Shown here: positions 25,986-61,528 of the stretch, piece by piece | Layout: every line of letters begins with the position of its first letter | How positions within the stretch are numbered: the stretch's first letter is position 1 | Source: Gracilaria domingensis | Taxonomy: Eukaryota > Rhodophyta > Florideophyceae > Gracilariales > Gracilariaceae | Length of the DNA stretch: 64,000 bases | Direction of reading: 5' to 3' | Assembly (NCBI GenBank): GCA_022539475.1 | Contig: VCMS01000108.1 | Location: forward strand, 1-64,000 | Notes under the pieces: generated by a model | Databases searched by the model: none | Seen by the model: only the letters and a program-made list of their open reading frames with translations | What the model was told of the DNA's origin: nothing | Program-made: the position numbers and the translations under genes

Positions 25986-26405
25986 GCAGATGCTAGTTTT
26001 TGGCGAGGGTCGTCCAGAAATTGGCAAGGGTCGTCCAGTAAATTTTTTGAAAAAATATCGAGATCAATTATTTCAAAATTTGCAGATAATTGCTTCGGTC
26101 GTCCAGAATCGCTGTGCAGTAAATACTGGTGGGTTTTCCACTCGTGCTAGTTCTTTAGTCGAGGGCTACCTGAACTGTATTTCGCGAAGTCTAGGTTCAG
26201 TTTCCATTGAGGTGCACATTACACGATACCTTCTGCGGAATGATACCCTGCAACGCATGGAATACTAGTGCTAGTACAGATGATGCCCATTATGAAATCA
26301 TACCGTTTTATTCGTATCTATTCTTCTATCGACCGCTTTTGCTAACCACTACTTCGCTATATTACATGTACCATTTCCCCATGATGGATCGGGTGTAGGC
26401 GCAAT
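25986..26405. other. Unassigned sequence downstream of the truncated LINE
   Basis: An open frame continues to 26,268 but has no recognisable domain. It includes a short direct repeat (GGTCGTCCAG three times between about 26,008 and 26,105). No gene is called. Confidence 0.4.
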
Positions 26406-26557: not shown

Positions 26558-26879
26558 CTGCACCTGCAACTCGTGAGCTACGTACGCATCAAAAGTCATT
26601 TACCTGTATACGCAAGCAGAAAGTATCCATAAGTTAGTCAATGATCCGTTAGATACATTTGAAATGCGATGGAACGTACCATTGATAAAACAAAACAGAA
26701 ACGTTGCGCTAGAAAAGTCGAGGGACCTGGTAACTCGCAAACGGAAGAAGAAGCAGGAAAGGGATCGGTTAGATTACAAGCCCACCATATCATCGTAAAC
26801 CGCGAAAGGTGTCGAAGCGAGAACTCACAAGCAACGACACCAAGAATACCCATGCAGCAAACATACCGCAAAATGCGAT

Positions 26880-27300
26880 AAACGAGAGAGCAGCCTATGT
26901 CGCAACCAAGTACCAGAATCGACTATCCCGCAAGCCAGTCAACCAAGATCGCCAATACAAGAAGATCAACGTAAGGCGCGAGAAGAGAGGCGAGTCTATG
27001 AGGCAACCAAGTCAAACCATATCGCCAATGCACCAAAAGTAACGCAAGACGCGATAAGAGAGAGACCATCCTATGGCGCAACCTAGTCAACCAAGATTGC
27101 CAATGATGAACCTATCGCCCGAGCCAGTCAACCAATATCAACCAATATCGCCAATACACCAAAAGCAGCGCAAGACGCGAGAAGAGAGAAGAGTCTATGG
27201 CGGAACCAAGATCGCCAACAAACCAAAAGTAGCGCAAGATGCGAGAAGCTAGAGACGCCTATGGCGCAACAAAGTGAACCAAGATCGGCAATACCGCGTG
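26880..27300. repeat. Degenerate tandem repeat
   Basis: Units beginning with variants of GCGAGAAGAGAG, then CCTATGGCGCAACC, then CAACCAAGATCGCCAA, recur starting at about 26,880, 26,975, 27,049, 27,176 and 27,240. Unit length varies from about 64 to 127 bp. No gene is present. Confidence 0.6.
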
Positions 27301-27678
27301 ATAGGTTACACGAGCAGTCAGAGATCGATCTTGAGAGACGAAATGAAACTGGTTGCGTACTTACAGTCGTTGTGGACGTCGGAAGAAATACAAAGGACGC
27401 ACGTCAAATAGTGGTTACCTTCAATCACGTCAATGTTAGTAGCAAGACGTAGAACAAGATGGAACATATCGTAAGCAGAACGTAGTTGAACAAATGGAAC
27501 GAGTTGGAGGCTGAAAACGGGAACCCGGTAACCCAAAGCTTATTTTCTGCCGTTTACATGTCGAATAGCGCGAAAAAACGTGGTGAGGATGGGTTAGTTT
27601 AGAGCAAAGATACATAGAAGAATATGGAAGAGAACCTACGAAAAGACTGCACGGAATACATCCGTGAGATACGGATGA

Positions 27679-28026: not shown

Positions 28027-31000
28027 ATGACGTCGATCTTGACTGTCGCTCGACCTCCTTCTCCCTTCGGACGCCCTTCCCTTGCAGTCTTTGTCGTCGT
28101 TTCTCGTTCAGTTCTTCTTCCCATGGTCTACTACTGTACACATAAGAAGCGTGGGTGCCCCTTCGTTACTCGCCGAGGAGTCTTATCCCTTCAACAGCAT
28201 GTCAACCATTGCCCGTTTCGTCTGAAAGCAGCGCTGGAAGACGACAATAGCCGGCCCATTCGGAGAAGCAAGCGTCTCAAGCTTTCCGCACCCGCGCCCG
28301 CATCTTCCGAAACGGTCACTGCCCCTTGTCGCCTTCCCGAGCCTCCAGTGTCCGAGGACATCGTCGACCCCACTCCGTGCGCCCCTCCCATTCCGGAAAC
28401 TTCGCATTGTGTTTCTTTTTCCCCGGGTCCCGCGTCATTAGAGCGAGAACACGGAAGCAGTTCCCGCCCAGTGCCTTCTGAGGAGGCCCTCGGTGATTTG
28501 CATATGGATTATCTCACGGTTTGTCTGGCTTCAGTAGCTTCCAACCTTGGTCATCGTGAGGCGGACGAGCTAATTGGGCTACTTCGGGACCCGCGATTCT
28601 CGCAAAAGCGATTCAACGAGACCATAACAAGTTCCAAGCGCTGTACAGAACTGAAGAAGGCCATTTTCGAACGATACGCCTCAAAGGACGGTTTCAATCG
28701 CAGAACTGTCTCGCCAGAAGGATGTAAGTTCAGCGCCACCCTCTACACGAGAGACCCCGTTCAGACACTTGTGAAACAGCTCCAGTTGGCTAACAACGAA
28801 AACACATTCTTCCACCCTATACCTCAGACCCACTCCACGAAAATATCTCACCCCATGTCCGGCTCTCTCGCAAGAGACGCCACCTCAAAACTTAAGGAAA
28901 TGGTCATGGGCTCTTTGGATAGTAGAATAGTGTGGTACTCCCAAGAAATAAGTTACAGTGAATCTTTCGTAGGTCTTCTGCAGGTATACACCGATAAGTC
29001 TTCAACAACTCTAAAGCAAACATCGGTTACCGCCTATCCTCTTCACCTCATATTTCTCAACTTCTCCGACCAGCTTCGCCGTAAGTGTATCCGTGATGAC
29101 CTCACAGTAGTGGCATACTTCCCTACCACACTGATCGAGGTTTCCGCATCTGAAGCAGACGCAATGCCATTCGTTTCTAGCAAGTCTCTACGCGAGTCCA
29201 GGATGCAAATCCTTCAAGAATCTCTTCGTCAAGTCCTGGAGCCCATTCTAAATCTCACGCAGAAAGGTTTTCAGTTCATCGGCGAAGACAAACTAAGTCG
29301 AGTGTGCCATCCTCTGCTTGCAAGTTATTGTGCGGATATTCCTGAGGCTAAGGACATTCTGTCTATTCTTCATGGCACCAAAACGGAAAGCCCGTGTCAT
29401 AGATGCAAAGCCCCTCGCTCATCTTTATGCAGTCCTATTCCCACCTCATTCAACGGACGTTCTCAAAAGCACACGAAAAGCATCCGAAAGACATACACAG
29501 CTATCTTGCAACATGCACAAAAAGACGAGGCGGAAAGACGTCCACGTCGTGCGAGGGAGAGGAGATCTCAAGCGGATACTCTGATGCGTTCAAATTCCAT
29601 ATCTCTCATTCCTTCGTTCCTCGAAACTTCCGTAAGCCTTGGAATGATCCCGGGATTGTCTCCATACAGTCTGTTCTCATTCGAACCATTACACAACTTG
29701 CATCTCGGCATCTCAAAGTTGATAAAAACGGCCACAATCGAGAGACTGCAGTCAGACACCCTGTGCACCACATTAGGAACATCTGCATCGCGTTCATTTC
29801 GAACGATACGCACCCAACTCCTCAACCATGCAAACGCAATTCTAGCTGCCATAGAACGCGATTCTCCTGCCAAAGGTTTACATATCGATTTCTCCACGCA
29901 GGAGAAAGGCAAATCTTTGAATGGTATCTTCACGAAAGACGGTCTCCGTGGAATGCTGGAGGCCAAAAACTACAAAGCACTTGACATGGTCTTTCCCTTC
30001 ATAGGAGCATTCTTTGACATATGCTGTGGAGAACAGGACGTTGCCCCAATCACAACCGTTTTCTCTCAGTATTCGGACTTGCTCTCGACCTTATTCAGAT
30101 ACAATCGTGACCCGTATTGGACTGAAAGCTCTCTCCTGTGTCTTAGTTCGGAGATTGAAGCCTTCAAGCGTTCCGCAACAAAGACTCTGGCGGATTTTCA
30201 TCCCTCCAGACTGGGAACTCTGAAGTTTCATCTTCTCGATCATCTCGTGGACGATATTCGCCGTCTGGGAAGTATCAAGTACTACGACGCAGGCATATAC
30301 GAACATGCACACCTGCTATTTAAGAGACACTACAAAAAGACGTCCAGAAGAACAGCAACGGCTGTGGAGGAGACTATTCGCTCCATTGAGCACGGACATG
30401 TTAGAAAGCAATGGAATGGCAAAACTCCTTACCAGCGTAATCCAGGTTTACCAGGAACTTCCACACAGCTTCCTCGGTTTGCAATGAGAGGGCGTTCTTT
30501 CACTTTACGAGCTCTTCAACATTGTGTTTCAAGTATGTCCAGTTCAAAAACATGGACTGCTGTTAGAGAAATGTTCTCAAGTACGGACACAAGGTCGATT
30601 CTTGATCAAATTGGTCAACAGGCCCTTCCTCCTTTCCTCAGTCTCGTGAAAGAAACACTGGATGAGCACTCTATTACATACTTCCCAGAAAAGACAAGGA
30701 TAACTCTGGTGAATTCGGCCGTCGTGAAAGGCGGTTTCGTTCCGACTCTTGAACACTTCGATTCGTCTTCTAAGGCACTTAAGCTGGGACGACCCAAATA
30801 CCCCATCATCCAACGTGTCTTCGCTTCTCCAGCATTTGGTCCCAGTAGAAAGCCAAAGTTTTCCACTGTATTGGTAAGCGGAGAAGATTCAGAGACTTGG
30901 GTTGCCCAGGTAGTCGCTCTGATTCGAATATCTCTCCTTGATTCTGCACTTACCGCACCAGAGGTGGCATTCGTCCGGTATTTCGAGGTTTTACCCCCCG

Positions 31001-31302
31001 CAACAAACATCGACCACATATTGAAATGCATATCTTTACGGTGGGCTACAAACGATGAAAAGAACCACACTCTTCCGTTCCCTCGTCATTCCAAAGCGGA
31101 GACTATCGTAGAGTTAACTCCTTGGTACGGGATGGTTCCGGCTTCTGCACTACAGGGAACTGTCCATGTTGTTCGATCAAACTACCCTGCTCCACCTTTT
31201 TGTCCTCCACTTCAATGGTTCCAACACCGATTCTACATCAATCGATTCTATCATGATTCAGATGAAGGACCAACTGAGCACGTTGATCTTGTACAGCCTT
31301 AA
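28027..31302 (+). CDS. KDZ/Plavaka-like DNA transposase
   Basis: A long intact frame. The likely start is the ATG at 28,123, because the Cys/His zinc-binding N-terminus (CTHKKRGCPF ... QQHVNHCPF) follows directly; the upstream ATG at 28,027 would add 32 residues. Features resembling Plavaka/KDZ transposases are a Cys pair with a CHRCKAPRSSLC block near residue 457, an FEPLHNLHLGISK block near 551 (these families usually have Asp-x-x-His there), KNYKALDMVFPFIG near 645, and KFHLLDHLV ... YDAGIYEHAHLLFKRHYKK near 735-770, whose Glu fits the third DDE residue. It would be a nuclear enzyme for cut-and-paste transposition. Its stop codon overlaps the stop of the convergent gene at 31,299. I am fairly sure of transposase, less sure of the exact family. 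Confidence 0.62.
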   Translation: MTSILTVARPPSPFGRPSLAVFVVVSRSVLLPMVYYCTHKKRGCPFVTRRGVLSLQQHVNHCPFRLKAALEDDNSRPIRRSKRLKLSAPAPASSETVTAPCRLPEPPVSEDIVDPTPCAPPIPETSHCVSFSPGPASLEREHGSSSRPVPSEEALGDLHMDYLTVCLASVASNLGHREADELIGLLRDPRFSQKRFNETITSSKRCTELKKAIFERYASKDGFNRRTVSPEGCKFSATLYTRDPVQTLVKQLQLANNENTFFHPIPQTHSTKISHPMSGSLARDATSKLKEMVMGSLDSRIVWYSQEISYSESFVGLLQVYTDKSSTTLKQTSVTAYPLHLIFLNFSDQLRRKCIRDDLTVVAYFPTTLIEVSASEADAMPFVSSKSLRESRMQILQESLRQVLEPILNLTQKGFQFIGEDKLSRVCHPLLASYCADIPEAKDILSILHGTKTESPCHRCKAPRSSLCSPIPTSFNGRSQKHTKSIRKTYTAILQHAQKDEAERRPRRARERRSQADTLMRSNSISLIPSFLETSVSLGMIPGLSPYSLFSFEPLHNLHLGISKLIKTATIERLQSDTLCTTLGTSASRSFRTIRTQLLNHANAILAAIERDSPAKGLHIDFSTQEKGKSLNGIFTKDGLRGMLEAKNYKALDMVFPFIGAFFDICCGEQDVAPITTVFSQYSDLLSTLFRYNRDPYWTESSLLCLSSEIEAFKRSATKTLADFHPSRLGTLKFHLLDHLVDDIRRLGSIKYYDAGIYEHAHLLFKRHYKKTSRRTATAVEETIRSIEHGHVRKQWNGKTPYQRNPGLPGTSTQLPRFAMRGRSFTLRALQHCVSSMSSSKTWTAVREMFSSTDTRSILDQIGQQALPPFLSLVKETLDEHSITYFPEKTRITLVNSAVVKGGFVPTLEHFDSSSKALKLGRPKYPIIQRVFASPAFGPSRKPKFSTVLVSGEDSETWVAQVVALIRISLLDSALTAPEVAFVRYFEVLPPATNIDHILKCISLRWATNDEKNHTLPFPRHSKAETIVELTPWYGMVPASALQGTVHVVRSNYPAPPFCPPLQWFQHRFYINRFYHDSDEGPTEHVDLVQP

Positions 31303-32765
31303 ACATTAAGGGCTCCATCTTCTACATGTTCACCTTGTGGTGCCTTTTCTTGTGATCCTGTGTTAATTCCGAAATCGTTCATGTCCATTTCCTTGAACTC
31401 CATATCCCCTTCCTCGCATTCACCAACGAAGCAATCGCTAATAGACCCCAATCTTCGGCTCACACTGTCAATAAAAAATTGTTCTTTCACAGTGAGGTAA
31501 AGTCTTCCGTTCGACGGCATTCGATATCCAAATGTAGCCTCTCTCATGTCATTACCAAGAACCTTAGTCCAATCTTCCGTTGTCGTTCCAAAATTATGAA
31601 ACTCGCTGGAATTGGTCCTCAAGACATGTTGCCTAACATCCCCCAGAACATTCTTTAAACACAGAGGTAGCAGTTCAGCAAACTTCTTTGTAAACAGTTT
31701 CTGTCTCTGGCCACCCCTTGACACATCCGTACTTAGAAGGCTCACAACCGTCAACACCCAAGCGTCCAAACGTGCGAGCAACAGTATTGTGCCATCTAAA
31801 AAGGTGCCCGTATCCTTGTCTTCCACATCATACCCAATAAACTCCTTCAGCACTTGTACCCCGACACGGTTTCGGAAGAACAAGTCTTGATCTTCCGTCG
31901 GCATATCCTCGACATTGTCCGCATGGGAGTACTTTAGACGAACAAATGGGGCTTTTCTCCACCATGAAGTGTTCGGTACACCATTTTCGTCAAAACGCAG
32001 TATGTTCTCCTGCGCTTCCTTCAACTGCATTGTGAGTTCGTCAGCATTCTCTTCTACCAGCTTTGTTCTTCTCCAAATCAGATCGTACCCCAGGAGCAGA
32101 AATAGTTTATCCCTCGTATTTCTCTTACGAACGCCCACGACGTCACTCATGGTCTGCCGCATTCTCTGCCTAAGGCACATATCTGCACAAAGTTCCAGTA
32201 TACACCTGTCGGTAAGAGATGCTTTTCTAATACCTTCCCAGCTCAACTCCTTCAACTCGCTTTCAACCATTTTCTTCAGCAAAGCATCTGGTCCCCCCTC
32301 TACCGACGGTGTGAACATGCCAAAACTGCCCAAGAGCTCCACGGGGTTTTTAGGAACCATGTATGAACCACCTTCCTCCGGCTCAATAAGCCCTTCCCCA
32401 CTCTCAGTTGCGTCTTCCACCTTCTCGGCACGGTTACCCCAATTTCGGGTGAGCGACTCACCTTCGAGCCATAGCTCACTTGTTTCTCTCCTTGCCCACG
32501 TCAGCATGTTGTGATACACTGCTCGAGCAACCCCTCGAAACTCGTCGCACACCTCAATTTTATGCTTCTTTCGACCTGTCTGCCCAGGTTCACCAGCACG
32601 TGTACTCCTATCTCCCTCCTGTTTCAGTGCCCCTCTTAGCCCTTCAATGACTAGATCCTTCTCTTCAAGCCTCTTTTTCAAAGCCGTACTCTGCTCTTGG
32701 GCGACCTTCACTAGAATTCCCCGAACCATCAAGTCCTCTTGTAGCGTCTTAACCTTTTCTTTCAA
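31299..32765 (-). CDS. Unknown protein with N-terminal coiled coil
   Basis: 488 residues, open throughout. The N-terminal 60 residues form a strong heptad-type coiled coil (VKTLQEDLMVRG, ALKKRLEEKDLVIEGL). The remainder is a mixed globular region rich in charged residues and Trp (LTWARRETSELW, YDLIWRRTKLVEENADEL, NTSWWRKAPFVRLKYSH), ending in an acidic tail. I recognise no known domain. Its stop shares the TTAA at 31,299-31,302 with the stop of the transposase, so the two are tail to tail with no spacer. In the frame upstream of 32,765 the coiled coil seems to continue (YEQTDLLNEL), suggesting that the gene originally began further upstream, in the ORF at 33,013. Confidence 0.6.
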   Translation of the reverse strand: MKEKVKTLQEDLMVRGILVKVAQEQSTALKKRLEEKDLVIEGLRGALKQEGDRSTRAGEPGQTGRKKHKIEVCDEFRGVARAVYHNMLTWARRETSELWLEGESLTRNWGNRAEKVEDATESGEGLIEPEEGGSYMVPKNPVELLGSFGMFTPSVEGGPDALLKKMVESELKELSWEGIRKASLTDRCILELCADMCLRQRMRQTMSDVVGVRKRNTRDKLFLLLGYDLIWRRTKLVEENADELTMQLKEAQENILRFDENGVPNTSWWRKAPFVRLKYSHADNVEDMPTEDQDLFFRNRVGVQVLKEFIGYDVEDKDTGTFLDGTILLLARLDAWVLTVVSLLSTDVSRGGQRQKLFTKKFAELLPLCLKNVLGDVRQHVLRTNSSEFHNFGTTTEDWTKVLGNDMREATFGYRMPSNGRLYLTVKEQFFIDSVSRRLGSISDCFVGECEEGDMEFKEMDMNDFGINTGSQEKAPQGEHVEDGALNV

Positions 32766-32779
32766 GCAATTCAGTTCAT

Positions 32780-33013
32780 TTAAAAGATCAGTCTGTTCAT
32801 AGAGCTTGAATTCACACCAGTTTGGATATCTTCCGTTATTTCCCTAGCTTCTTCGGCGACAGGCCCCGGTAATGCCGCAGGATTCGGTGTTATTTCGTTA
32901 TCGGAACTATCCTCATGTGCCATAGCCTTAGCCACGAGAGGCTGCAGGCGTTCTGTGTCCACCCTTGGCACGGCTCGAGCTCCAACTCCCGTGTATGTCC
33001 TCCTCCATGGCAT
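32780..33013 (-). CDS. Small ORF, probable N-terminal part of the coiled-coil gene
   Basis: 77 residues from an ATG at 33,013 (MPWRRTYTGV ...), basic then acidic and Pro/Ala-rich, of low complexity. It ends 15 bp before the 488-residue frame, in a different frame; the neighbouring frame already shows coiled-coil sequence. A single frameshift (real or a sequencing error) would explain this, because the adjacent DNA is a suspicious duplication with an ambiguous base at 33,092. Confidence 0.4.
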   Translation of the reverse strand: MPWRRTYTGVGARAVPRVDTERLQPLVAKAMAHEDSSDNEITPNPAALPGPVAEEAREITEDIQTGVNSSSMNRLIF

Positions 33014-33222
33014 GGTATATCAGATGAATTGGGCCTCGTACGAGCTGCAACGGCCCCCGTTCTGGAAAGAGGGGAAGCGTCGAAAAAGTAANCACCTTAG
33101 CACGGCTCCGGGCTCCAACCTCCCCGTGTCTGTCTCCTCCTGGCCATGGTTTATCAGATGAATATGGGCCTTCGTACGAGGCTCAACGGCCCCCGTTCTG
33201 TAAAGAGGGGAAGGTCGAGGAG
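32959..33222. repeat. Imperfect ~130-bp tandem duplication with an N
   Basis: Two consecutive versions of the same sequence (about 32,959-33,090 and 33,093-33,222) share blocks such as CACGGCTC, CAACGGCCCCCGTTCTG and AGAGGGGAAG. The second copy differs mostly by single-base insertions. An N sits at 33,092, on the junction. This looks like an assembly join. Confidence 0.75.
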
Positions 33223-34575
33223 TAACTTCGTTCTATAAGTTGTCTCTCGTTTATTAATTGTCTTTTCCCTTCGTCCAGACCCCATGCGGAGGCATGATAC
33301 GATTTTCATAGCGGCCCCAGTTCTAGAAGACAGGATGGACGTGACGATCTTAATATACTAGGGCTTCACGACTTCTCGTCATTGTACCTTGTTGTCCAGA
33401 TCACTGGGCCGGCGTAACCCAGGGCCCCAGTAGCTCCGGTCTTCGGATTATCGGCCGGGGACATTGAGGTTTGGTGTCTACAACCTCTTCAGTTCCCAGT
33501 TGTTCATGCCCTCCTGTCCTGGGAACCCGCTGGCGGCCGAGTTTCACCTCATCTTTTTGAGAGCAGAGACGATGCACGATTGCTTATCGACAGTTGACGG
33601 CACGACATCGTTCGCTGACACGAATTTCTTTGACGCAATCCCGGAGGATGTCCGCTTTATCAGATGAGCGAGCAGAGTTACTGGTAGAAGCTCCACTGAC
33701 TCTCTCCTTCTCGAGGACGACTTCCGTTAAGAAGTGCGGTGCTTGATAAGCCTGGATTCGTATCAATCCAATGTTCTTCTCTTCTTCTCTCACTCTTCTC
33801 CGCTGCGTACATTTCGCTTTCTCGCGCGTCTTACATGTTGTGGAGATAAACGGGGTAAATGAAACCGAAATTGTTGGGGGGGCGAAGGCGTGAGGGGGGG
33901 GTGCATGTTCAGATATTCCGGGAGACTCCGCAGTTCCTGCTTTTTAGGAATTTGAGGTGCCCAATGGGTCGCAAATATCGCCGTTACAGATGAAAAGCTC
34001 CAGTTTACATGTACAACAACGCGTATTGCAGGCAGCTGCAACATTCACAAGCATATTTACTTTCTATTCGGTACTGAACTCATCTATTGCTCAATGTCAG
34101 AGCCCAGTCCCAGGCGTACTGCTCTCCGTAGTTGAAATACAACTCTTCGCCCCTCTCAATATCTCTTACTGCTCTACAACGAAGTAGAGCATAGTTAGAA
34201 AGGTCGACTTAAACTGTATCACGGACTTCGCTTCCACCACCTGCACATTGGCACTTCGAGTCCTGTTTGACCGGGGCTCCGATAAATCGGGATCCCCGGC
34301 ATGATATCCGGCGTCGTTAATGTAGCCCCCGATACAAAAAGCGCCGGGACAATGTAGACTTCGCTCTCCTTTCTATCCTGAGCCTGTCCTGGTCTGTTCC
34401 TCAGGTGCAGAAACTCCGTACCATCACAGTGACCATCATAGAAAACAACTTGTACCGCACTGGAGTTGCTCCGAGACAGCCACTTCCATACGTTAAGTGT
34501 CTTTCCTTCCGGTTCGTCAGATCCGTGTATACCAAAGTTCCATAGAAATGACAGATAGTTTCCCCAGCCAATATC
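33223..34575. other. Spacer without a recognised gene
   Basis: About 1.35 kb between the small ORF and the methyltransferase region. Frames are short, a run of G residues lies near 33,875-33,902, and no domain, tRNA or hairpin of note was found. Confidence 0.5.
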
Positions 34576-35779
34576 TTATGTTCCGTGAACACCCCATACC
34601 AGCACGGGATGTCGGATCTTAGAAGATGCTATATGTAAGCGATATCGATTGGCTTCAACAGTCAACAGCATATGCATATCCATAAGATTCAGAGCTCCTC
34701 GGTACTTCTCCTCCCAAAGATCTACAGTACGCTCTCCACACTTGTCGACAAAGTCCCAGTCCTTCCAGTATCTTCCTAGGAACTGAGTAATATGTCCAGG
34801 CATCACTTGGTACTGGGGGTAACCAAATGGAGCCTCCCATTCAAGCCGACCTCGGTCCCGATGTGGAACCCGTTCATAGGTCGTTGAAGCCGCATCCACC
34901 ACCTCCTGTTCAACCAGGATGTCATTCTTCCCCCCCCGAATAACTTCGGCCATAAGAGTCGTTAGATGGTGCTTCGCATGGCTGAAACATGGCCTATTCT
35001 TCTCGCACCCCAAGAACTTCCTATGCTTTGTCAGCGATAGGCACGCCATACCCGTAGAAAAAGTTCCCGCGAACATGTCCATGACAAGATCACCCGGTCT
35101 TGTGAAGCGACATATCAACTCCTTCATCAACTCCCTCGACTTCTGCTCCGGTCTATGTACTGCCCACCTGGTACTGACTACCTGGCTCATGTACCTTCCA
35201 TGTCAACCACTCCCCCGCCCTCGGTTTGGGCACCCGGTCAATTACATTCCTGTTAGCCGGGAAAGTGGAAGGAATGAAATTGTTCTCCTCAAATGGAGTA
35301 AGACTGGCTTCCTCCGATGGTCGCAATCCACGCTTCACCCCATGAACGGCGTACTCCGTTACGGGCTGTATCCCAAACTTCCGTGGATCCCTCCAACATT
35401 ACTGCGATCCCGGATGAACACCAGTGGATTCGCATCCACTTTAAACGAAGGCATGAGTTCTGGTTTACCTTCGCTTCCAGCTTCATCTTTCGTACTCGCC
35501 GTTTCCGAAAGTATCCTGTGCACACATGAAACTGTGCCATGGCACAGAATATAATGAATGCCCACCTGACCGAAGCGCGGAACTTATTAAGTCAGCCGTA
35601 CGGATCATGTCTTCCTCACTGAAGACATCGTGACCACTATTCCGTTTGTTCCTCTTCCTTCGAGTGTTAAAGGGAGGGTCTGTTAGGACAAGCTGTGCCT
35701 CACCCCATAAAATCTGACTCTGATTCACAAACGTTTCGTGTGTGTGCCTCAGGTCCGTCATGTCACAGTTGTACCACAA
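34576..35779 (-). pseudogene. DNA methyltransferase, N4-cytosine/N6-adenine beta-class type, interrupted
   Basis: Two minus-strand pieces carry the signatures. 35,483-35,779 has LVLTDPPFNTRRK (catalytic motif IV, DPPF at 35,669-35,680). 34,576-35,190 has HRPEQKSRELMKELICRF, then the S-adenosylmethionine-binding motif I (VMDMFAGTFSTGMA) and FLGCEKN. Motif IV before motif I is the circularly permuted order of beta-class amino-methyltransferases, mostly bacterial and phage enzymes. The middle (about 35,190-35,480) is readable only by changing frame, for example through FKVDANPLVFIRD. There is no ATG at the N-terminal frame start. It may be a decayed gene or one with unrecognised introns. It would methylate exocyclic amino groups of DNA; which base cannot be told. 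Confidence 0.7.
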
Positions 35780-35913
35780 AGTGTGACTTTCTCATCCCCT
35801 TCCACACCTTGTCCATATTCATTCGAAGGAGACTGGATATCCCTTCATGGGCGGCTCAATACCAGTCTTTTGGATGTTGTAACCGGCAACCCGAGATTCA
35901 TACTCCGCAAGAT

Positions 35914-36549
35914 TCACCGCTTCTCGAAGTCGTCGCTATCGGAGCTCACGAGATTCATATACTCTCGACGAGGTGGGGGTGAGGCAGACTTGGTCGAAGA
36001 AGGTTCGGCATTACCGGAATTTTTAGGGGTTTTCGTCAGTTCAATATCAGGTTTCGCGTGAATGCCGACATGGAACCCTGCCGCATGACGCATATCCTGT
36101 ATCGGTTTCCATAGCAACTCCGAAAACTTCTGAAATCGAGCAGGCAACTCACCGGAGTCAAAACCAGATACGGTATCCATCCGTATCTCCGAAAACTCTA
36201 TCCAGTTCCCATCTGATCAGCCCGTAAGCTATAGAGGCTATCGTGGGTGCATATGGTTTCGAGGTCTGTCAAAAAATTCCTTAGCCAGTATTCGGAGGTT
36301 TGTATCGCATTCATCACTCAAGGTCTCCACCGATCCACTAGTACTGCTCTGTGGCACATCCTTTGTGTTGAATCGAGTACTCTGGCTCGGCGGGGCACAA
36401 CCAGACTCCCGTGTCTCTAGCGCCGTATACCTCAATGTCTGCATATTCATGTAAATGTATGGTTTCACCATGTGCTGAACGTTCGTGTATCCAAGATGTG
36501 CCGTAAAACAACTCCATGCCCATACGACCTCACTGATAGCGAATCCCAT
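35914..36549 (-). pseudogene. Upstream segments of the methyltransferase transcription unit
   Basis: Two frame pieces in the same phase. 36,238-36,549 (SEVVWAWSCFTAHLGYTNVQ, then Ser/Thr-rich) and 35,914-about 36,220 (GNWIEFSEIRMDTVSGFD ... PARFQKFSELLWKPIQ, ending acidic) are separated by stops at 36,238, 36,229 and 36,217. Their protein-like composition and orientation suggest N-terminal regions of the methyltransferase protein or a neighbouring gene. No domain is recognised. Confidence 0.4.
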
Positions 36550-36646
36550 CGATCACAGTTGTCTTTGGAGAACGACGTAAAAGTGGGTATGTACACAGAT
36601 GGTGCATGGTTCACTTTTCGTTTCTCTTTCGGTTGTTTCTTCTTCA

Positions 36647-36955
36647 TCATTCGGATGTTGTCGTTCTCTCCATTATGTGGCCGAGGTATGATAAGTATAT
36701 AACGACCTCAAATGGGTTCACAGCTGTTGGTGGGATGAACAATGTCGTCTTCAGAACCTGCTTTCTCCTGGTCATGAAATAACCAACCAGGCATCGCACC
36801 GGTAGGTATATACCCATATCCATAGAGAGAATGAAAAAATCGCGCAGTCTCTGGTCCTCATCCCCGTCCTTCTTGTCAAGAAGCTTCGTTACATGATATC
36901 GTTGTTCCACAGGTTTGTTATTCACAACACTCTTTCGCAGTTGTTGCAGTGTCAA
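36647..36955 (-). CDS. Unknown ORF in the minus-strand array
   Basis: About 102 residues without a proper ATG (the frame opens at a TTG) and overlapping the end of the preceding ORF by 4 bp. It contains LRKSVVNNKPVEQRYHVTKL, a hydrophobic stretch (FFILSMDMGIYLPVRCLVGY) and FEVVIYLSYLGHIM. The overlap and lack of ATG suggest it is the continuation of 36,952-37,203 after a frameshift or intron. Function unknown. Confidence 0.4.
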   Translation of the reverse strand: MTLQQLRKSVVNNKPVEQRYHVTKLLDKKDGDEDQRLRDFFILSMDMGIYLPVRCLVGYFMTRRKQVLKTTLFIPPTAVNPFEVVIYLSYLGHIMERTTTSE

Positions 36956-37203
36956 GTTCTGGAGTTCTTGGAGTTAGTGGCCTCCTTAAACATCTTCCTT
37001 GCCTCCGGAATATCCTTATAGTTCTCGGCGCAGAACTCTATTAACCCTCTAAACCCGACGTTCCGTGACCGATCAGGGCCTCCATCGCTGTTTGCCAAAG
37101 CATCGCGAAGAACCAAGAAAAGTCTAACATATGCATGGAACGCCGGAGGCGGAGCACTCATGTTGATAGGATGTATCTCCTCTCCAACATCGGTGGAATC
37201 CAT
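36952..37203 (-). CDS. First ORF of the minus-strand array
   Basis: 83 residues from the ATG at 37,203, which lies about 25 bp from the edge of the palindromic region and downstream of a TTTAAA box. The sequence (PPPAFHAYVRLFLVLRDAL, FRGLIEFCAENYKDIPEARK) is alpha-helical in character; no known domain. Its promoter sequence is mirrored before the divergent ParB-like gene at 38,607, implying co-regulation. Confidence 0.5.
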   Translation of the reverse strand: MDSTDVGEEIHPINMSAPPPAFHAYVRLFLVLRDALANSDGGPDRSRNVGFRGLIEFCAENYKDIPEARKMFKEATNSKNSRT

Positions 37204-37225
37204 CGCTTCAGCGCAAACAACGGAG

Positions 37226-38537
37226 GCGAGCCTTTAAATGGCGACTTACGCTGGGCACCCCCGCTTTCGCAGCTCCTCCTAGCGCACTGCCAGTCTCGTC
37301 CGTGTCCGTGTCCGCTCGGTGCGATAGCGTCGCGTGTCGGCCACGTCGCGATTCGGAGCTATTGCAAAGGTCGCGTATTGTGCTAAAAGTCGCGGATCAA
37401 GTGGGTGTGAAGCGCTAGTTTTCTCTAGTTTGATATATGTGCACGGCGTGTGCAGCGAAATCACTGCCGGGAGAGTGGGGAGGAGTGCTTTGGGAGGTCT
37501 CCGGAGGGTACCAGAATGTGGCTAGAACGTGCCCGCGGGCGGAGGGGGTCGGTTCTGTTAGGGTAGCTACCCTAACACGACCGGATCCCCCCGCCCGCGG
37601 GCACGTTTAGGGCGATTTTTTGAAAAATGTGCGATTTTATGCCCGCGGGCGGGGGGGTCTGGTCGTGTTAGGGTAGCTACCTTAACACCACCGACGCCCC
37701 CGCCCGCGGGCATAAAATGGCCACATTCTGGCACCCTCCGGAGACCTCCCAAAACACTCCTCCCGGCACTTCCTGTACCCACTGCATCACCTCAGTGCAC
37801 CATCCCGGAAATTAAAGAGTTTCTGGAGGGTGAAGAAGACGGGATGGTCACCTCAGTGCTCCATCCCGGAAATTAGGGAGTTTCTGGAGGGTGGAGATGA
37901 CGGGATGGTGCACTAAGGTGACGCAGTCGGTACAGGAAGTGCCGGGAGGAGTGTTTTGGGAGGTCTCCGGAGGGTGCCAGAATGTGGCCAGAACGTGCCC
38001 GCGAGCGTAGGGGGTCGGTCGTGTTAGGGTAGCTACCCTAACACGACCGGACCCCCCCGCCCGCGGAAACGTTTTGGACGATTTTTTGAAAAATGTGCGA
38101 TTTTATGCCCGCGGGCGAGGCGGTCCGGTCGTGTTAAGGTAGGTACCCTAACACGACCGACCCCTCCCGCCCGCGGGCACGTTCTGGCCACATTCCGGCG
38201 CCTTCCCAGGACCTCCCAAAACACGCCGCCCTGCAGTGATTTCGCTACACCCGGCCGCCGGTACGTTGGCGCCGCTGTCCACGTGTATTTGCGGGAGTAG
38301 GCTATACATGGAAGTGAATGAGTGTACTCTTGACTACTATGCAAAGCATTTGAAGAGCATGATTAGAGAGCGCGACCATTGCTCGCCTGAGTCATCATTG
38401 CGCGAACTCCACGACTCTAAAGCGTACAATCAGCGTGCGAGCGGCCACGGACAGGACACGGACGAGACTGGCAGTGCGCTGGGAGGAGCTGCCGAAAGCG
38501 GGGGTGCCCAGCGTAAGTCGCCATTTAAAAGGCTCGC
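37226..38537. repeat. 1.3-kb nested palindrome between divergent gene arrays
   Basis: Outer inverted arms of about 100 bp (37,226-37,320 and 38,436-38,537) carry TTTAAA promoter-like boxes facing both genes. Inside is a second pair (about 37,435-37,545 and 38,170-38,290), then a third (about 37,720-37,800 and 37,905-37,990). Four compact palindromes lie at 37,527-37,606, 37,635-37,717, 37,992-38,071 and 38,104-38,181. Each has CCCGCGGGC at both ends and a TTAGGGTAGCTACCCTAA-like core. The whole is symmetrical about 37,870. It could be a shared control region, an origin, or a binding array for the neighbouring ParB-like protein. Confidence 0.88.
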
Positions 38538-38606
38538 ATCCGTTCTTGTATCGTCCAGAGCGAGCGTATTGTTGATATACACCTTTCACTGCAATAGCTG
38601 TTCAAC
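38515..38606 (+). promoter_or_regulatory. Candidate core promoter of the plus-strand array
   Basis: ATTTAAAAGG at about 38,523 lies about 80 bp before the ATG at 38,607. The same box in mirror image (CTTTAAATGG near 37,232) lies about 30 bp before the divergent ATG at 37,203. Both are inside the outer inverted arms, which suggests matched bidirectional promoters. Inference from sequence only. Confidence 0.45.
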
Positions 38607-40232
38607 ATGAAGCCAACTCGTGTTCGAAAGCGTACGCAAAGCGTGACTCCTCGCACTCGGCGGAGCACCCGATTATTGCAAGGTGGAATGCGGGTTTCTC
38701 TGCAGATAGATATTGAGGATGAAGGAAAGGTGATAGTCGGGGAAGCGTTGTTGCATGGAATTGGAAGTGTTCTACGCCGCAAGTTGCACGGGAAGCAATT
38801 GGACCCAGGTCTTGTGGTGGTTCATAATATTCTCATCAGTCGAAGCGGTCAGACGTTCTACCCTTACCGGGCGGAGGGCCTGGATCTTCCACAATATATC
38901 CAGGATCTCCGGACGGCCGCTCCTTGGGATGAGAAAATGATGGAACCGGTGGCAGCCAGCATTCCGGCGTCGAAGCGAGGAACGGTGAGCGCTATGAGTG
39001 AGGTGATGACGCCGACAAGCCGCACGGAGCCAATTCGAAGTTCATCAACACCGAGAGGTAGCGCATCAGTACCACCTCCGCGGGCAGGTCCGTCGTCTGT
39101 TACGAAGCGGTCTATGGAGACGAGAGCATCCCCAGCTACGAAGCAGACAGGTCAAACAAAGTCTACCTCCGCTACGAAGCCCACTGCGTCGAAAAGGGCT
39201 TCTCCTGCGATGAATCAGACCGTCGACACAAGGGGAACTTCTGCGTCGAAACAGACGGTTCAGCAGGGGACGGCTGTGCAAGAGGAGGAAGATGAGATCA
39301 TAAAAGGTCCCCTTCCAGACGCGGATGCGCAATCCGCACAAGGAGCTGGTCCATCTGTACCCCAAACTGCACCAGAAACTGCGAAGCAGCAGGACGATGA
39401 CGTTGTGCTTCTGTCCGCAAGAATGGCACGTTCAAGTGTTTCTGGCGAGCGGTCTGGAACACAAGGGACACCTACTTGGAGCAAGACGTACAGACGAATT
39501 CGTCAGAAGGTACCAAAGGTGAACCTCAATCAGTACCGGATGGTTGTTGTTACTGTTGACATCACTCTGGTGGACACTCCGCCGAATTTACTCCGTGGAG
39601 TAAGTAAACGCCACGTTGAAGCCCTTGTGAAGAGTATGGAGGAGCTAGGGATATTGCGGTCGATGGGTTCTCCAGTGGTGGCCTTACAAGATGCTACTAC
39701 GGGAGAGAGAGATACTGACAAGGGACGCCTAACGAAGAAGTGTTTTATTGTAGATGGTTTGCATCGTCTGAAAGCTATACAATATTTGGCAGCGACTGGT
39801 GCACCAAAGTGGAAGCGATTAGCCAAATTTTGGCGTTTCAATCTGCTGATACGAAGAGATGGGAGGCCCATTGGGATGAAGGAATTGTTATGTGTTGCTT
39901 CGTACCTCAATGAGTCGACGAGTACCATGCGAAGGATGATGTTTGCAGACAAGATACACTCTATAGTTAGTGTGGTCGCCATTCTAATTGATGATGTTGA
40001 GGGGGTGACGCCGGCAGACGTGGATCCTGCAGAAGTGACAGAAGTGTTGAAGGAGAGCCAACTGATTGGGACTGTGCAAGAGCGTCAGTATCTGAGATAT
40101 GCCATTGTCTCCCTGCAACTCATGTCTCGTGAGGGAATGCTGGCCCATTTCGAGGGTATATGTGAGACTGTGAGTGACATAGGTCTCACACATCTGTCCC
40201 ATACTCCGCTATATGTTTTGGATGCCGAGTAG
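38607..40232 (+). CDS. ParB/sulfiredoxin-fold protein
   Basis: 541 residues from an ATG 70 bp beyond the palindrome. The N-terminus is basic (RVRKRTQSVTPRTRRSTR). Residues about 165-225 hold a degenerate Thr/Ser/Lys repeat (ASPATKQTGQTKS, ASPAMNQTVDTRG). Residues about 300-400 match the ParB N-terminal fold: VDITLVDTPPNLLRG, VSKRHVEALVKSMEELGI, then CFIVDGLHRLKAIQYL, the DG-x-HR nucleotide-binding motif. In bacteria this fold is a CTPase/DNA-clamp or nuclease domain in partition and DNA-modification systems. The next two frames continue in the same phase after the TAG at 40,230, so this may be the N-terminal part of a larger protein ending in a dioxygenase. Confidence 0.65.
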   Translation: MKPTRVRKRTQSVTPRTRRSTRLLQGGMRVSLQIDIEDEGKVIVGEALLHGIGSVLRRKLHGKQLDPGLVVVHNILISRSGQTFYPYRAEGLDLPQYIQDLRTAAPWDEKMMEPVAASIPASKRGTVSAMSEVMTPTSRTEPIRSSSTPRGSASVPPPRAGPSSVTKRSMETRASPATKQTGQTKSTSATKPTASKRASPAMNQTVDTRGTSASKQTVQQGTAVQEEEDEIIKGPLPDADAQSAQGAGPSVPQTAPETAKQQDDDVVLLSARMARSSVSGERSGTQGTPTWSKTYRRIRQKVPKVNLNQYRMVVVTVDITLVDTPPNLLRGVSKRHVEALVKSMEELGILRSMGSPVVALQDATTGERDTDKGRLTKKCFIVDGLHRLKAIQYLAATGAPKWKRLAKFWRFNLLIRRDGRPIGMKELLCVASYLNESTSTMRRMMFADKIHSIVSVVAILIDDVEGVTPADVDPAEVTEVLKESQLIGTVQERQYLRYAIVSLQLMSREGMLAHFEGICETVSDIGLTHLSHTPLYVLDAE

Positions 40233-40259
40233 TTTTCCTTCATTCTTGATTCTCTTCAT

Positions 40260-41687
40260 ATGTTTCTATTGAAGGGCAAGTCGACGAAGACAAAGCAATG
40301 GAAAAGCTTTGAGGAGGTTCGAGGTTTCTTTTATGATAGAGCAGTGTCTCTGTTCCGCGCGGCTCGAGCAGTGAGGAATGAACTGAACGAGGAAGAGTCC
40401 ATGAAAGTGTTCCTGAAACGCGAAGTCAGTCTTTCTGCTCCATCGAATGAAGATGACGTTGAAGACCCAGACAACAACGCAGCTGTGTATCAGTTCCTTT
40501 TGGGACAAGTTGTGAACTTCAAAACATTGCCGCGTGTTCGGAGCAGGACAAACTCAATTAGAACTGCCACGACTTCCGTTCAGAATCGATTGCGGACGAT
40601 GCTCAAGGTAATTCCGCCCCCCGCACCAGTGAAGCAGTCCGTGACGAAGAGGAGGACTCCCGCTGCTGCTGCTGCAACATCTGCCAGTGGAGAAGGGGAG
40701 CCGCGAAGAAGTGCACGAGAACGGGCGCAGGTGAGTTATAGGGAAATTGAGCACGGCCGAAATCGAGGTGCCATAGAAGTTCTGGATAGCTCTAAAGAAG
40801 AACAGCGGGCTCCGCCGAGGAAGAAACGGAGAAAGACTTTCACAGAACAGATGAGATCTACTCTGAACAGCATGACACCGGATGACCTGATGTCTCAACT
40901 AAATGAACATGTGCTGAGAGGAAGGTCGATGAAGGTTCAGTTCGTGGCATTGGGAGAGGGAGCGAATGCAGAGAACGCAGGCAGTTCTGCATTTGTGGAT
41001 GACGAAGAGCTTCTTTGTGTGACGGTTCCACGGGTTGTCACCGTCGAGCAAGAGGCTGCGCCAGACGATCAGCAAGAGACAGGTGGGGGGTCATTTGATG
41101 ACGAGTTACCTACAGCTCTTCCGGAATCTGAGGAGCACGGACTTGTTCGAGGTGACCCATATGATGGCCCACTGAACCCATCATGGTGCGGGTATGCCAG
41201 GCTGAGACCGCAGGAATGGAAAAAGAAGAACGGAATTGAGCACAAGGACCCCTGGCTCAGAGTCATTCACTTGCCGAAGGGACATAGGTCGGAGCTGCTA
41301 AGTGTCTCGAATCTCAGAGATGTACACCATCTTGTCTTTTGGCACGCTGCAAGGGCTGAACATCGCCTACGGGCGGAGACATTTGGTATGCAGTATCCTC
41401 GTACTCGGCCGACAGGTATGGATGATGAAGAGGTGCTGTCGGTTGCTGCGAAGGAGCATGACGAATTTGGGCAAATGTTCTTCCCCCGAATGCAAGCTGA
41501 GCTAAGGCAGAATGGATATTGCGTGCTTGATGGCTTTGCGACGGATAATGGTATCCCTAAATGGGAGGAGTTGGAAGAAGTTCGGGAGTTCGGAGATGTG
41601 TCGGGGAAGTTGGTGGACTTCTTCGAGAATGAGTATGGAGCGATGCCAGATATACGGAAAGAGGAGGAACAGAAGTCGTTTGTTTAA
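40260..41687 (+). CDS. Unknown middle region and start of a 2OG dioxygenase domain
   Basis: 475 residues, same phase as the ParB-like frame. It is charged and low-complexity up to about residue 290, including a basic nuclear-localisation-like PPRKKRRKTF near 182. From about residue 420 it has FPRMQAELRQNGYCVLDGF ... LVDFFENEYG, the usual entry strand and helix of phytanoyl-CoA-hydroxylase-like dioxygenases, whose catalytic residues lie in the next frame (41,748-42,413). The in-frame TAA at 41,685-41,687 separates them. The ATG at 40,260 lies 27 bp after the previous stop. Confidence 0.55.
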   Translation: MFLLKGKSTKTKQWKSFEEVRGFFYDRAVSLFRAARAVRNELNEEESMKVFLKREVSLSAPSNEDDVEDPDNNAAVYQFLLGQVVNFKTLPRVRSRTNSIRTATTSVQNRLRTMLKVIPPPAPVKQSVTKRRTPAAAAATSASGEGEPRRSARERAQVSYREIEHGRNRGAIEVLDSSKEEQRAPPRKKRRKTFTEQMRSTLNSMTPDDLMSQLNEHVLRGRSMKVQFVALGEGANAENAGSSAFVDDEELLCVTVPRVVTVEQEAAPDDQQETGGGSFDDELPTALPESEEHGLVRGDPYDGPLNPSWCGYARLRPQEWKKKNGIEHKDPWLRVIHLPKGHRSELLSVSNLRDVHHLVFWHAARAEHRLRAETFGMQYPRTRPTGMDDEEVLSVAAKEHDEFGQMFFPRMQAELRQNGYCVLDGFATDNGIPKWEELEEVREFGDVSGKLVDFFENEYGAMPDIRKEEEQKSFV

Positions 41688-41747
41688 ATAATCAACGATG
41701 ATGAAGGATGGAAGGACGGTAGCGATGGACCATTTGAGGGGAGAGTG

Positions 41748-42413
41748 ATGTCGACAAGTTGTGGTACGGTGGAGAAGCCGGAGGATAATGAGGAGCTCAG
41801 GTGGGTTGTAAGGTCGCGTGCTTTACTTGATGTTCGAATGGGTACAATTGCTGCGGCTTTGGGACTATGGGACAATGAAAGGGAAGCTGTGAAGATGTAC
41901 ACTCCGAAAACTGGTGGTCGATTTCTGGGGACGACGAGAAAGTGCAAGCGCCAGACGCTGCACACCGACTTCAGTGGTCTGATTACGAAGGAAACAATGA
42001 ATACTGGTAACCCCGGATACTTTTTAATGGCCTCTGGGAAAGAAGGCTTTCCTCTCTGGGTGAGCGCCGGAAGCCATCAACTGGTGGGGATGAACAACCA
42101 ACAGTTGCGAGTGATGTCGGAGGTGTTTCCAGCGAGGAAGATAATCATCCCACCGTACTCTGTATTCGTGGGCCGTGGTGATGTGATACATGCTGGAGCA
42201 AGTGGGAAGGACAAGGTGGATAGGCCCGAGTCTATGGATTTGCTGGTTAGATACCACATGTACATGGTACCAGAGGGCTACACCCTACCTGATGCTGTTC
42301 ATCGGGTGCGGGATTTCCGACCAACGTTTGTCAATGGTGACGAGGAGGAGGAGGCGGAGGATGAACTGTTGTCCGATAAGGAGGGTGGGGCGGTTGACAT
42401 GGACGAAGACTAA
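41748..42413 (+). CDS. 2-oxoglutarate/Fe(II) dioxygenase catalytic domain
   Basis: About 221 residues with the full iron site: HTD (41,961-41,969, in RQTLHTDFSGL), a distal His (42,189-42,191, in FVGRGDVIHAGAS) and the co-substrate-binding Arg 20 residues later (LLVRYHMYM, 42,249-42,251). This is the double-stranded beta-helix pattern of Fe(II)/2OG oxygenases. The tail is acidic. After the TAA at 42,411 the same phase continues for 36 codons (SSSDDDLPIMRLRAP) to a TGA at 42,522. The superfamily includes TET/JBP DNA-base oxidases and AlkB repair enzymes, but also small-molecule hydroxylases; the substrate is not known. Neighbours favour a nucleic-acid role. Confidence 0.65.
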   Translation: MSTSCGTVEKPEDNEELRWVVRSRALLDVRMGTIAAALGLWDNEREAVKMYTPKTGGRFLGTTRKCKRQTLHTDFSGLITKETMNTGNPGYFLMASGKEGFPLWVSAGSHQLVGMNNQQLRVMSEVFPARKIIIPPYSVFVGRGDVIHAGASGKDKVDRPESMDLLVRYHMYMVPEGYTLPDAVHRVRDFRPTFVNGDEEEEAEDELLSDKEGGAVDMDED

Positions 42414-42524
42414 GTGGTCCTGGAGATTGGTGTGGAAGCGGACGCCGGTAGAACCGAAGTGCTCGAGAGTAGTAGTGATGACGATTTGCCAATAATGAGG
42501 CTGCGAGCGCCTCGAAGTGGATGA

Positions 42525-42782: not shown

Positions 42783-43694
42783 ATGAAACTGAGAAGCCTA
42801 TACAGTTCCTGTCTATGCGGTACTTGTGGCAGTATGGTGACGGTATCAGGAGAAATGGCAGAGGAACAGAGAGCCTTGGCAGAAATTTCACCCAATATCT
42901 TGTCTAAGTTCATATATGCCAATGGTTACGGTATATTAAGTTCCGTTGATGAAACGTTGAGAAGAGAAGGAGAGTCAATTCCAGAAGAAGTTGTGAAGTG
43001 TATGAAGTTCATTGACGAACGTGTTGGTTTCGAACTTGTCACAGGGGGTGATGTGGGCGACGTGGAGGCGAAAATGGAAGGACTCGGAGACTATAAGTTT
43101 GGTGTCTCGGCGAATCATGGAGCTTTCCTCCGTTTCTCTGACGAGAGGGAAATTAAGGCTGCATTCAATGATCACACCCTTGACCACACTGTTGACGGAC
43201 TACTGTTCCTGGCAAGGGATTTGAATAGGAGGCATGGTATTGTGAATGATGATGAGAAGGGGTTCGTGGAGACCAGAAGTGATAGTGGCCTTCCCAATTT
43301 CGTGTACAACAAACTGTGGCGGTAGAGAGAAGAAGTGGATTCTGCTATTGGGGACCTGTTGCAGAAAATGGATGCGTTTATTATCTATACCGGCGATAAA
43401 AGTTGCGAAATTGTGGACAAGCGATACACAAAAGGAAGCGGAGGAGAAAATCTTGTGGATAATGAACCGAGATTTATTGATACGGATGACGTCGTGACGT
43501 TCGGAAGTGCTTTGAGCGACGGGCCTTTGCATGAAGTAGGCGTGTACGGCGTTCACGTCAAAGAAGATTGTATCCCGGGTGGAGTACACAATCTGTTCGA
43601 AAGCGTGGAGGATGTACATTCGACAATTATGCTGGTGGCTCTGTTGTACGGCTACGAGGAAAAGCAGCACGATAAAAACTACCATGAATCATAA
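42783..43694 (+). pseudogene. HAD-superfamily phosphatase pseudogene (copy 1)
   Basis: Paralogue of the minus-strand gene at 43,747-44,667, tail to tail with it and about 50 bp away. Similarity is end to end (NGYGILSSVDETLRREGESIP aligns with SGYAVISDIDGTLKRAGENIP). The catalytic DxD motif is lost: the nucleophilic Asp is Ser and the Gly-Thr context is altered. An in-frame TAG at 43,323-43,325 stands where copy 2 has Trp; the frame then continues in phase to 43,694. With both active-site loss and a stop, it cannot be an active phosphatase. It is a dead duplicate. Confidence 0.75.
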
Positions 43695-44667: not shown

Positions 44668-44697
44668 ACGAATGAGAAGGATGTGATTGATGTTCAC

Positions 44698-47250: not shown

Positions 47251-47487
47251 AGGCGAGGTGGGTGGGGACTATGTGAAGAGGGGACAGAGAGATGGCGCTT
47301 AAATAGTGGAAGGTGCGGAGGTGTACAGTGGATGTTTTGGCGGGAAATGGGATGAGGGAAACAGGGACAATCATGGTGCTGGATATAGCTCGTGTGGTTG
47401 GACAGTGGGGGTGGACAGCACAGTTTAGCTCGATTGCACTGTATCGCAGCGGAAACTTCGATTCAACTACTATTTCTTTTTCTGAAG

Positions 47488-55314: not shown

Positions 55315-55350
55315 TGGTACTCTCGCCGAGGTGCCCTTGGCCCTGGTACT

Positions 55351-60838: not shown

Positions 60839-60839
60839 G

Positions 60840-61481: not shown

Positions 61482-61528
61482 CTCAGTACTTTCGACGCCC
61501 GGTGTAGCGTCGTTTGAGCTCGCGGGTG

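Follow-up and report, generated by a model that had tools for sequence, protein, structure and literature searches.

A stretch of 64,000 nucleotides from the red alga Gracilaria domingensis (assembly GCA_022539475.1, contig VCMS01000108.1, here C108, positions 1 to 64,000; called the window below) contains, at 25974-48340, one copy of a large mobile element that is almost certainly a DNA transposon of the Plavaka superfamily. Besides its transposase the element carries two genes that start divergently from a palindromic centre. Judged by its sequence, gene 3 encodes an amino-methyltransferase of the beta class and the adenine type (DPPY/F), joined to a SET domain in one protein, and gene 4 is predicted to encode a protein with a ParB-like and a 2-oxoglutarate (2OG)-oxygenase-like part. 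We favour, with moderate confidence, the reading of a cut-and-paste Plavaka transposon equipped with its own chromatin-marking module. A preliminary description of this DNA had proposed one large transposon carrying a DNA amino-methyltransferase together with ParB-like and 2OG-oxygenase sequence, and the sharp ends and the other copies of the element agree with that proposal.

Ends, target sites and copies of the element

The element was delimited by comparing its copies. In 9 of the 10 copies fetched, as in the window, the left edge falls at window base 25974 with unrelated flanks beyond it; the tenth, copy C465, is without the left part. The left terminus, CGTCTGTCTCTTGCAGATGCTAG (25974-25996, plus strand), is matched by the right end of other copies, ...TTTGCAGAACACAGACG, as an imperfect inverted repeat: CGTCTGTCTCTTGCA and the reverse complement of the right end, CGTCTGTGTTCTGCA, are identical at 12 of 15 positions, and the termini can be written CGTCTGT...ACAGACG. 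The window copy is truncated on the right. It diverges from all 4 extended copies at 48340 and misses the right-most 507-515 bp common to the 4 other copies compared, in which the right extension ends ACAGACG. The full size of the element is about 22.4-22.9 kb, with end-to-end lengths of 22,427-22,545 bp in 3 of these 4 copies and 18,824 bp in the fourth, which has an internal deletion. The limits first proposed, 28027-42524, were too narrow. Repeat analysis detected left subterminal repeats, with units of about 64-73 bp, at 26836-27292 (plus strand).

The transposase gene (28027-31302, plus strand, 1091 residues) has an open frame in the window; of 8 other copies that allowed a measurement, 3 have it open too. 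It matches the Plavaka family of Pfam (PF18759) at 1e-18, above cut-off. It had been called KDZ/Plavaka-like; the Plavaka part of this assignment stands, and the KDZ (Kyakuja, Dileera, Zisupton) part does not, Plavaka being the sole Pfam match at E<=1. The host belongs to the Rhodophyta (Florideophyceae) and is not a fungus. A fungal origin was rejected from the named relatives and from 14 phycobilisome-linker matches in the genome.

The assembly comprises 77.9 Mb in 680 contigs. Genome searches scored the best candidates only (40 per DNA query), so all copy numbers are lower bounds, and the first-look counts (259, 612 and 646) refer to unscored candidates. The methyltransferase stretch 34500-35800 has at least 39 other matches that are 97-99% identical (best 40 of 259, its own place included), and at least 40 left ends were scored, the window's included, which is a safe minimum. 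Three DNA searches, taking the best 40 of each, recovered at least 110 distinct elements or pieces on 93 contigs. Many copies share an identical gene order and left end and are inserted in unrelated sequence; two are identical over 1613 bp in the gene 3 region. Contigs seem often broken or mis-joined inside the element, perhaps at the palindromic centre; of the 40 left ends scored, 11 are in minus-strand orientation at most 18 kb from the start of their contig.

Three uninterrupted sites, found by single-flank matches, were compared with left and right junctions located elsewhere in the genome, and revealed 2-bp target duplications, CA, CG and AT. The two junctions of each empty site are on different contigs, and we infer their pairing because they share the same empty site. 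When the flanks of six copies were joined, no locus spanned the join by more than 3-4 bases (best 40 of 802 candidates). In an assembled copy, the left and the right flank therefore do not seem to derive from one site, which points to assembly joins or to recombination between copies. The apparent absence of target duplications in assembled copies was rejected in the light of the empty sites; the duplications had been missed at first because the two flanking sequences of an assembled copy are not a true pair.

These observations bear on a trivial explanation, namely that an element is simulated by a chance grouping of host genes, by an assembly artefact or by contamination. Contigs do mis-join or recombine in repeats, and the flanks of one assembled copy share no empty site among the scored matches. 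On the other hand, the same left end and gene order recur in many copies within unrelated sequence, and one of these contigs bears a protein named as G. domingensis. We hold this explanation to be extremely improbable. A host gene cluster was likewise rejected, given the sharp ends, empty sites, many copies and divergent gene pairs. Rather than standing in conserved host synteny apart from the transposase, the flanking genes recur with the same ends and in the same order. The check suggested in the preliminary description, for other copies, terminal inverted repeats and target duplications, thus yielded copies, sharp ends and 2-bp duplications.

The methyltransferase-SET gene and its divergent neighbour

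Gene 3 (34072-37215, minus strand; L065:155-3289) has 1045 residues when intact and is broken in the window, where the Pfam match to N6_N4_Mtase lies in a minus-strand open reading frame (ORF) at 34576-35190. In copy C465, which has the 1045-residue gene, N6_N4_Mtase covers residues 506-743 (3.8e-15) and SET residues 873-1032 (1.7e-7), both above the Pfam cut-off. A methyltransferase had been reported at 34,576-35,779; the N6_N4_Mtase assignment and the DPPF and FAG motifs were correct, but the ORF really runs from about 37215 to 34072 and the SET domain had been missed. The gene appears as pieces in the window because this copy is degraded by single-base deletions, about ten relative to other copies. 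Introns in the methyltransferase were rejected, the frame changes being insertions or deletions of the window copy. An uninterrupted 537-codon frame is present in 6 of 12 other distinct copies, a tally in which L001, L003 and L007 are repeats, L008 was dropped for its strand, and L005 and L006 were dropped as repeating kept copies. The full-length gene is free of stops in 9 copies, C465 included (44 scored of 1052 first-look candidates).

The class assignment comes from the motif order, with motif IV (DPP[YF]) ahead of motif I (FxGT) as in the beta class; DPP is invariant in all 26 aligned rows. The nearest solved structures are the adenine enzymes DpnA, CcrM and MboIIA for the methyltransferase, and KMT2C, EZH2 and SETD8 for the SET domain. 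Database searches gave 25 relatives with 27-46% identity; 19 already bore annotations for both Pfam domains, and those with a species name belong to the red algae Chondrus crispus and Pyropia yezoensis. Nine of the 25 were scanned, and the methyltransferase scored above cut-off in all 9 and SET in 8. Gene 3 probably modifies DNA adenine. Its methyltransferase also matches the phage family phrog_67 (1.8e-23), with 29 bacterial loci. No plasmid match to the methyltransferase stretch was found, and none of the candidate viral relatives (37 and 2 pattern matches) was confirmed.

To place gene 3 among its relatives in the genome, Pfam matches were compared by position. All 150 scored N6_N4_Mtase (PF01555) matches (best 150 of 328 first-look), all 150 scored SET matches (best 150 of 311) and all 123 scored Plavaka matches (672 first-look) were above the Pfam cut-off. 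Of the 150 PF01555 rows, 129 entered the comparison (21 short matches were omitted and one short row was retained), together with the 150 SET rows and 98 of 123 Plavaka rows (the other 25 were omitted), and the labels A, B and C (methyltransferase) and 1 and 2 (Plavaka) were assigned from match spans. In the rows compared, a SET match lies 365-437 bp downstream of 60 of 92 type-A methyltransferases, and 17 of the 92 have a type-1 Plavaka within 9 kb, facing them. For 12 of 33 type-B methyltransferases, the second Plavaka type occupies the same position as in the window. No SET match adjoins any of the 33 type-B genes among the best 150 SET rows; this zero reflects the restriction to those rows, because the type-B gene of contig C12, with 32.5% identity to gene 3 across 957 residues, carries a SET domain above cut-off. 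The third type, on contig C382, has a single frame of 1169-1170 codons for methyltransferase plus SET and occurs there three times, each with a relative of the gene 4 oxygenase half (the only half compared) about 3 kb away on the same strand and, in the rows compared, with no Plavaka match beside it. Finally, type-A genes 3 and 4 form 10 divergent pairs among the 44 and 40 loci scored. The genome thus holds at least three diverged methyltransferase-SET families, two of which adjoin Plavaka transposases.

Gene 4 (38607-42522, plus strand) is 1305 residues long when intact and broken in the window; it is open in L095:195-4109, where the motifs DGLHR, LHTDF, RGDVTHAG and RYHMY follow one another in that order, giving a ParB-like signature (DGxHR) and a 2OG-oxygenase-like one (HxD...H...R). 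The ParB and HTD...H...R dioxygenase motifs had been noted previously as parts of a divergent array; they are present, in a single ORF. Of 40 copies scored (1627 first-look), 6 have stop-free frames of 1295-1308 codons. With the oxygenase half as query, 21 proteins were recovered, four of them from G. domingensis (92-100% and 35%). Regular expressions found the ParB-like motif in 13 of 16 aligned rows, the exceptions being P0032, with a different preceding residue, P0028, in which the motif is lost, and P0039, which is cut short; HxD and the distal H motif were each found in 16 of 18 rows. Within the oxygenase, H262 and D264 never vary, and conservation is at least 90% at H338 and R358. The ParB-like motif and the oxygenase are found together in most aligned relatives. 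The ParB-like part matches phrog_3264 (5.6e-4), and its AlphaFold model is confident (predicted local distance difference test, pLDDT, 84.6; predicted template modelling score, pTM, 0.81). A phage match was also sought with this part and none was found.

Some relatives of gene 4 deserve mention. Two copies, P0027 and P0028, are filed in the databases under names that mislead (mediator subunit 15-like; cell-wall-anchored protein SasA); their gene models are without the oxygenase core present in open copies. One relative of the 16 scanned, P0040, has an extra fusion to an Ulp1-type C48 peptidase domain (best 9.1e-15). Identical contig statistics for P0004, of the gene 3 type, and P0030, of the gene 4 type (4 contigs, longest 20,528), hint that both lie on one contig in another organism.

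The palindromic centre (37216-38606) occupies the interval that separates genes 3 and 4, which start from it in opposite directions. It is composed of nested inverted repeats whose outermost arms, 37233-37269 and 38493-38529, are 100% complementary, in agreement with the 1.3-kb palindrome noted previously. A 20-bp palindrome, GTTAGGGTAGCTACCCTAAC, lies at 37557-37576 with related sites at 37667, 38023 and 38133, so that the window holds 4 sites within 2 mismatches against 0 expected.

The remaining genes were characterised in the same way. Gene 2 (31299-33870, minus strand), coiled-coil-like and without Pfam match, is about 820 residues long when intact (823-codon frame in copy C296) and broken in the window. 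Genes 5 and 6 encode hydrolases of the haloacid dehalogenase (HAD) type. Gene 5 (42783-43690, plus strand), about 303 residues when intact, is broken in the window, where its piece has no Pfam match, and matches Hydrolase_3 in copy C359 (7.8e-5); gene 6 (43747-44697, minus strand, 316 residues) is open and matches Hydrolase_3 at 6.7e-10, with a Cof-type match at 6.7e-9 that falls under the curated cut-off. Gene 7 (45246-46262, minus strand, 338 residues) is an open frame without family match. Gene 8 (47390-48340) is a charged coiled-coil-like ORF cut by the truncation, with a 357-codon frame in copy C165 and no convincing Pfam match; it is assigned to the plus strand with uncertainty, minus-strand frames being present as well. 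Outside the element, a broken endonuclease-reverse transcriptase resembling those of long interspersed nuclear elements (24213-25973, Exo_endo_phos 9.5e-13) apparently hosts the insertion, with the junction at 25973/25974. Nested, partly inverted copies of a Copia-type long terminal repeat (LTR) retrotransposon (gag_2, RVT_2), up to 98.7% alike, occupy positions 1-20900. A Gypsy-type LTR retrotransposon lies at 53027-63818; its 2.29-kb direct repeats are 99.3% identical, and its insertion is therefore probably recent.

A candidate chromatin-marking module and its alternatives

The roles of writer and of eraser or reader are proposed here from the domains. Gene 3 would put N6-methyladenine (6mA) on the DNA of the element, while its SET domain would methylate lysines on nearby nucleosomes or on another protein. 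Gene 4 would attach to DNA by means of its ParB-like part, possibly at the palindromic sites that separate the divergent promoters. Such a position would be an obvious one for a regulator, and the sites might also load the ParB-like part. The oxygenase of gene 4 would remove or oxidise a mark on DNA or protein. The two genes together would set an element-specific chromatin state in which the transposase gene is expressed despite host silencing, and this expression may be autoregulated by the same state. We regard such an anti-silencing or self-regulating role of the pair as a real possibility, without leaning towards it. A bolder version seems unlikely to us: the element would form its own chromatin domain, in which a ParB-type clamp loaded at a parS-like palindromic centre delivers the oxygenase all along its length, one polypeptide writes both 6mA and a histone mark on these same copies, and the writer-eraser system has spread through red algae.

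The divergent promoters on one palindromic centre suggest mutual regulation, and this could serve self-limitation, the writer silencing the transposon's copies and gene 4 releasing them as a control of copy number. The many copies with an intact gene 3 or gene 4 count in favour of this idea. However, the amplification looks recent and large, as illustrated by the two copies identical over 1613 bp, which is unlike strong self-silencing, and we hold copy-number control to be doubtful.

Another possibility is that methyltransferase and oxygenase, perhaps with the HAD hydrolases inside the element, build a hypermodified base that protects the DNA from restriction as in phages, the SET domain being accessory. 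The bacterial or phage type of the methyltransferase and the best family signal of the ParB-like part, which is in phages, go in this direction, as does the presence of HAD hydrolases among the genes. Yet no glycosyltransferase or nucleotide-modifying family was detected in the element ORFs scanned, and the conservation of the SET fusion argues that a protein substrate matters. To our knowledge, DNA restriction is rare in eukaryotic hosts. We consider hypermodification quite unlikely.

Several observations weigh against a chromatin-marking module. Several genes could be measured in 10 copies, counting that of the window; every one of these has at least one gene broken or shortened, and no copy with all genes intact was seen. 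The canonical SET active-site motif is NHSCxPN, in place of which the SET domain of gene 3 reads IND..Y...ANV. By regular expression, IND..Y occurs in 13 and GEEL..DY/NY in 15 of the 26 rows, not all of which are complete. SET catalysis is therefore uncertain, and the domain could be weak or dead. Neither ParB nor TET/JBP, nor any other Pfam family, matched gene 4, and TET/JBP did not match the relatives scanned either. The putative ParB assignment is built on the motif, the one phrog match and the AlphaFold model, and the putative oxygenase assignment is read from conserved motifs only. When residues 290-1149 of gene 4 were used as query, the search returned two proteins, both from G. domingensis (best 8000 candidates). 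The exact palindrome pattern occurs 3, 1, 0, 2 and 3 times in five other copies. Finally, GATC is rarer in the element than expected (52 vs 78), and an element marked at GATC was rejected for this depletion; a cluster of 8 GATC sites is nevertheless present in the left subterminal region (window 26643-27330).

The broken genes would also suit enzymes taken up from the host or from bacteria that have proteins or metabolites as substrates and hitchhike as cargo with no chromatin role, as would the uncharacterised HAD pair and gene 7. Speaking against such cargo, the methyltransferase-SET fusion recurs in diverged Plavaka families, and both gene types are found in other database proteins. Moreover, the pooled ratio of nonsynonymous to synonymous substitution rates (dN/dS) of gene 3 is 0.25 over 1611 bp, a value from six copies picked for their open frame, with few differences and non-independent pairs, which limits its weight for the module as well. 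This low ratio fits purifying selection in amplifying lineages. We judge mere hitchhiking to be rather improbable, and keep the chromatin-marking module as the preferred reading.

Comparison with known transposons and methyltransferases

The statements below refer to the passages of the cited papers that were covered. The closest transposons are the TET-carrying Plavaka elements of fungi, TET/JBP genes being known Plavaka cargo in two Agaricales (Kojima 2025, PMC12730594). Like these, the Gracilaria element is large and combines a Plavaka-type transposase, 2-bp duplications and an oxygenase-family gene; Plavaka target duplications measure 2 bp in PlavakaA and 2 or 3 bp in PlavakaB (PMC12730594). 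It differs from them by its red-algal host and by its cargo, a methyltransferase-SET gene and a ParB-like-oxygenase gene with no TET/JBP family match. Its termini, CGTCTGT..ACAGACG, are unlike those of PlavakaA (TGT..ACA) and PlavakaB (CATCA..TGATG) (PMC12730594). Termini being a lineage trait, this mismatch argues against PlavakaA or PlavakaB and not against the Plavaka superfamily. None of the 7 uses of the word methyltransferase in the passages covered of PMC12730594 concerns an amino-methyltransferase. KDZ elements are also DNA transposons with a 2OG-oxygenase gene, of the TET/JBP type in their case, whereas the Gracilaria transposase is without KDZ family match. HarbingerS and MuDR transposons of Phytophthora carry a SET gene (PMC12730594); unlike theirs, the Gracilaria SET domain is fused to a DNA methyltransferase.

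The Plavaka-flanked giant repeats of Amoebidium, a distant protist, reach 50 kb, with intron-poor genes, many tyrosine recombinases and tandem gene clusters, and have database matches in dinoflagellates or red algae (PMC11244446). They lower the novelty of a giant Plavaka with red-algal affinity, and not that of the Gracilaria gene set. The terms 6mA, adenine and SET domain are absent from the main text of PMC11244446; genes shared with the Gracilaria element are nevertheless possible.

Among eukaryotic fusions of a DNA methyltransferase with a chromatin domain, the closest in the literature covered is N4CMT of bdelloid rotifers (PMC8885841), likewise a beta-class bacterial amino-methyltransferase. 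Bacterial N6A enzymes carry the motif DPPY, most N4C enzymes SPPY (PMC8885841). The rotifer gene N4CMT has SPPY, N4-methylcytosine as its mark and a chromodomain reader, whereas gene 3 has DPPY/F and SET, is borne by a transposon and is multicopy. No passage joining Plavaka with an amino-methyltransferase was found in the literature covered, outside which are an adenine-methylation review (2016) and the TET/JBP paper of Iyer and colleagues (2014), either of which could describe a methyltransferase-SET fusion.

Transposons with erasers (TET/JBP) are already known. If the preferred reading is true, the Gracilaria element would add DNA and histone marking in one mobile gene, an adenine methyltransferase-SET fusion, together with a ParB-like oxygenase, and would offer a way to ask whether the epigenetic state of selfish elements is of their own making. 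It may further account for the puzzling wealth of DNA methyltransferase genes of bacterial type in the genomes of seaweeds. For instance, the red seaweed Asparagopsis taxiformis has 66 N6_N4_Mtase genes, described as potentially its most striking feature and reported as duplications, in an assembly with 33.48% DNA transposons (PMC12115072). In this respect it resembles Gracilaria, the passages covered of PMC12115072 making no link to transposons. According to a figure legend of the same paper, two DNA methyltransferase genes are named at the mbb locus, on the contig of the bromoform gene cluster; these could be remnants of such an element. We predict that the N6_N4_Mtase expansion of Asparagopsis may represent the same kind of element as that of Gracilaria.

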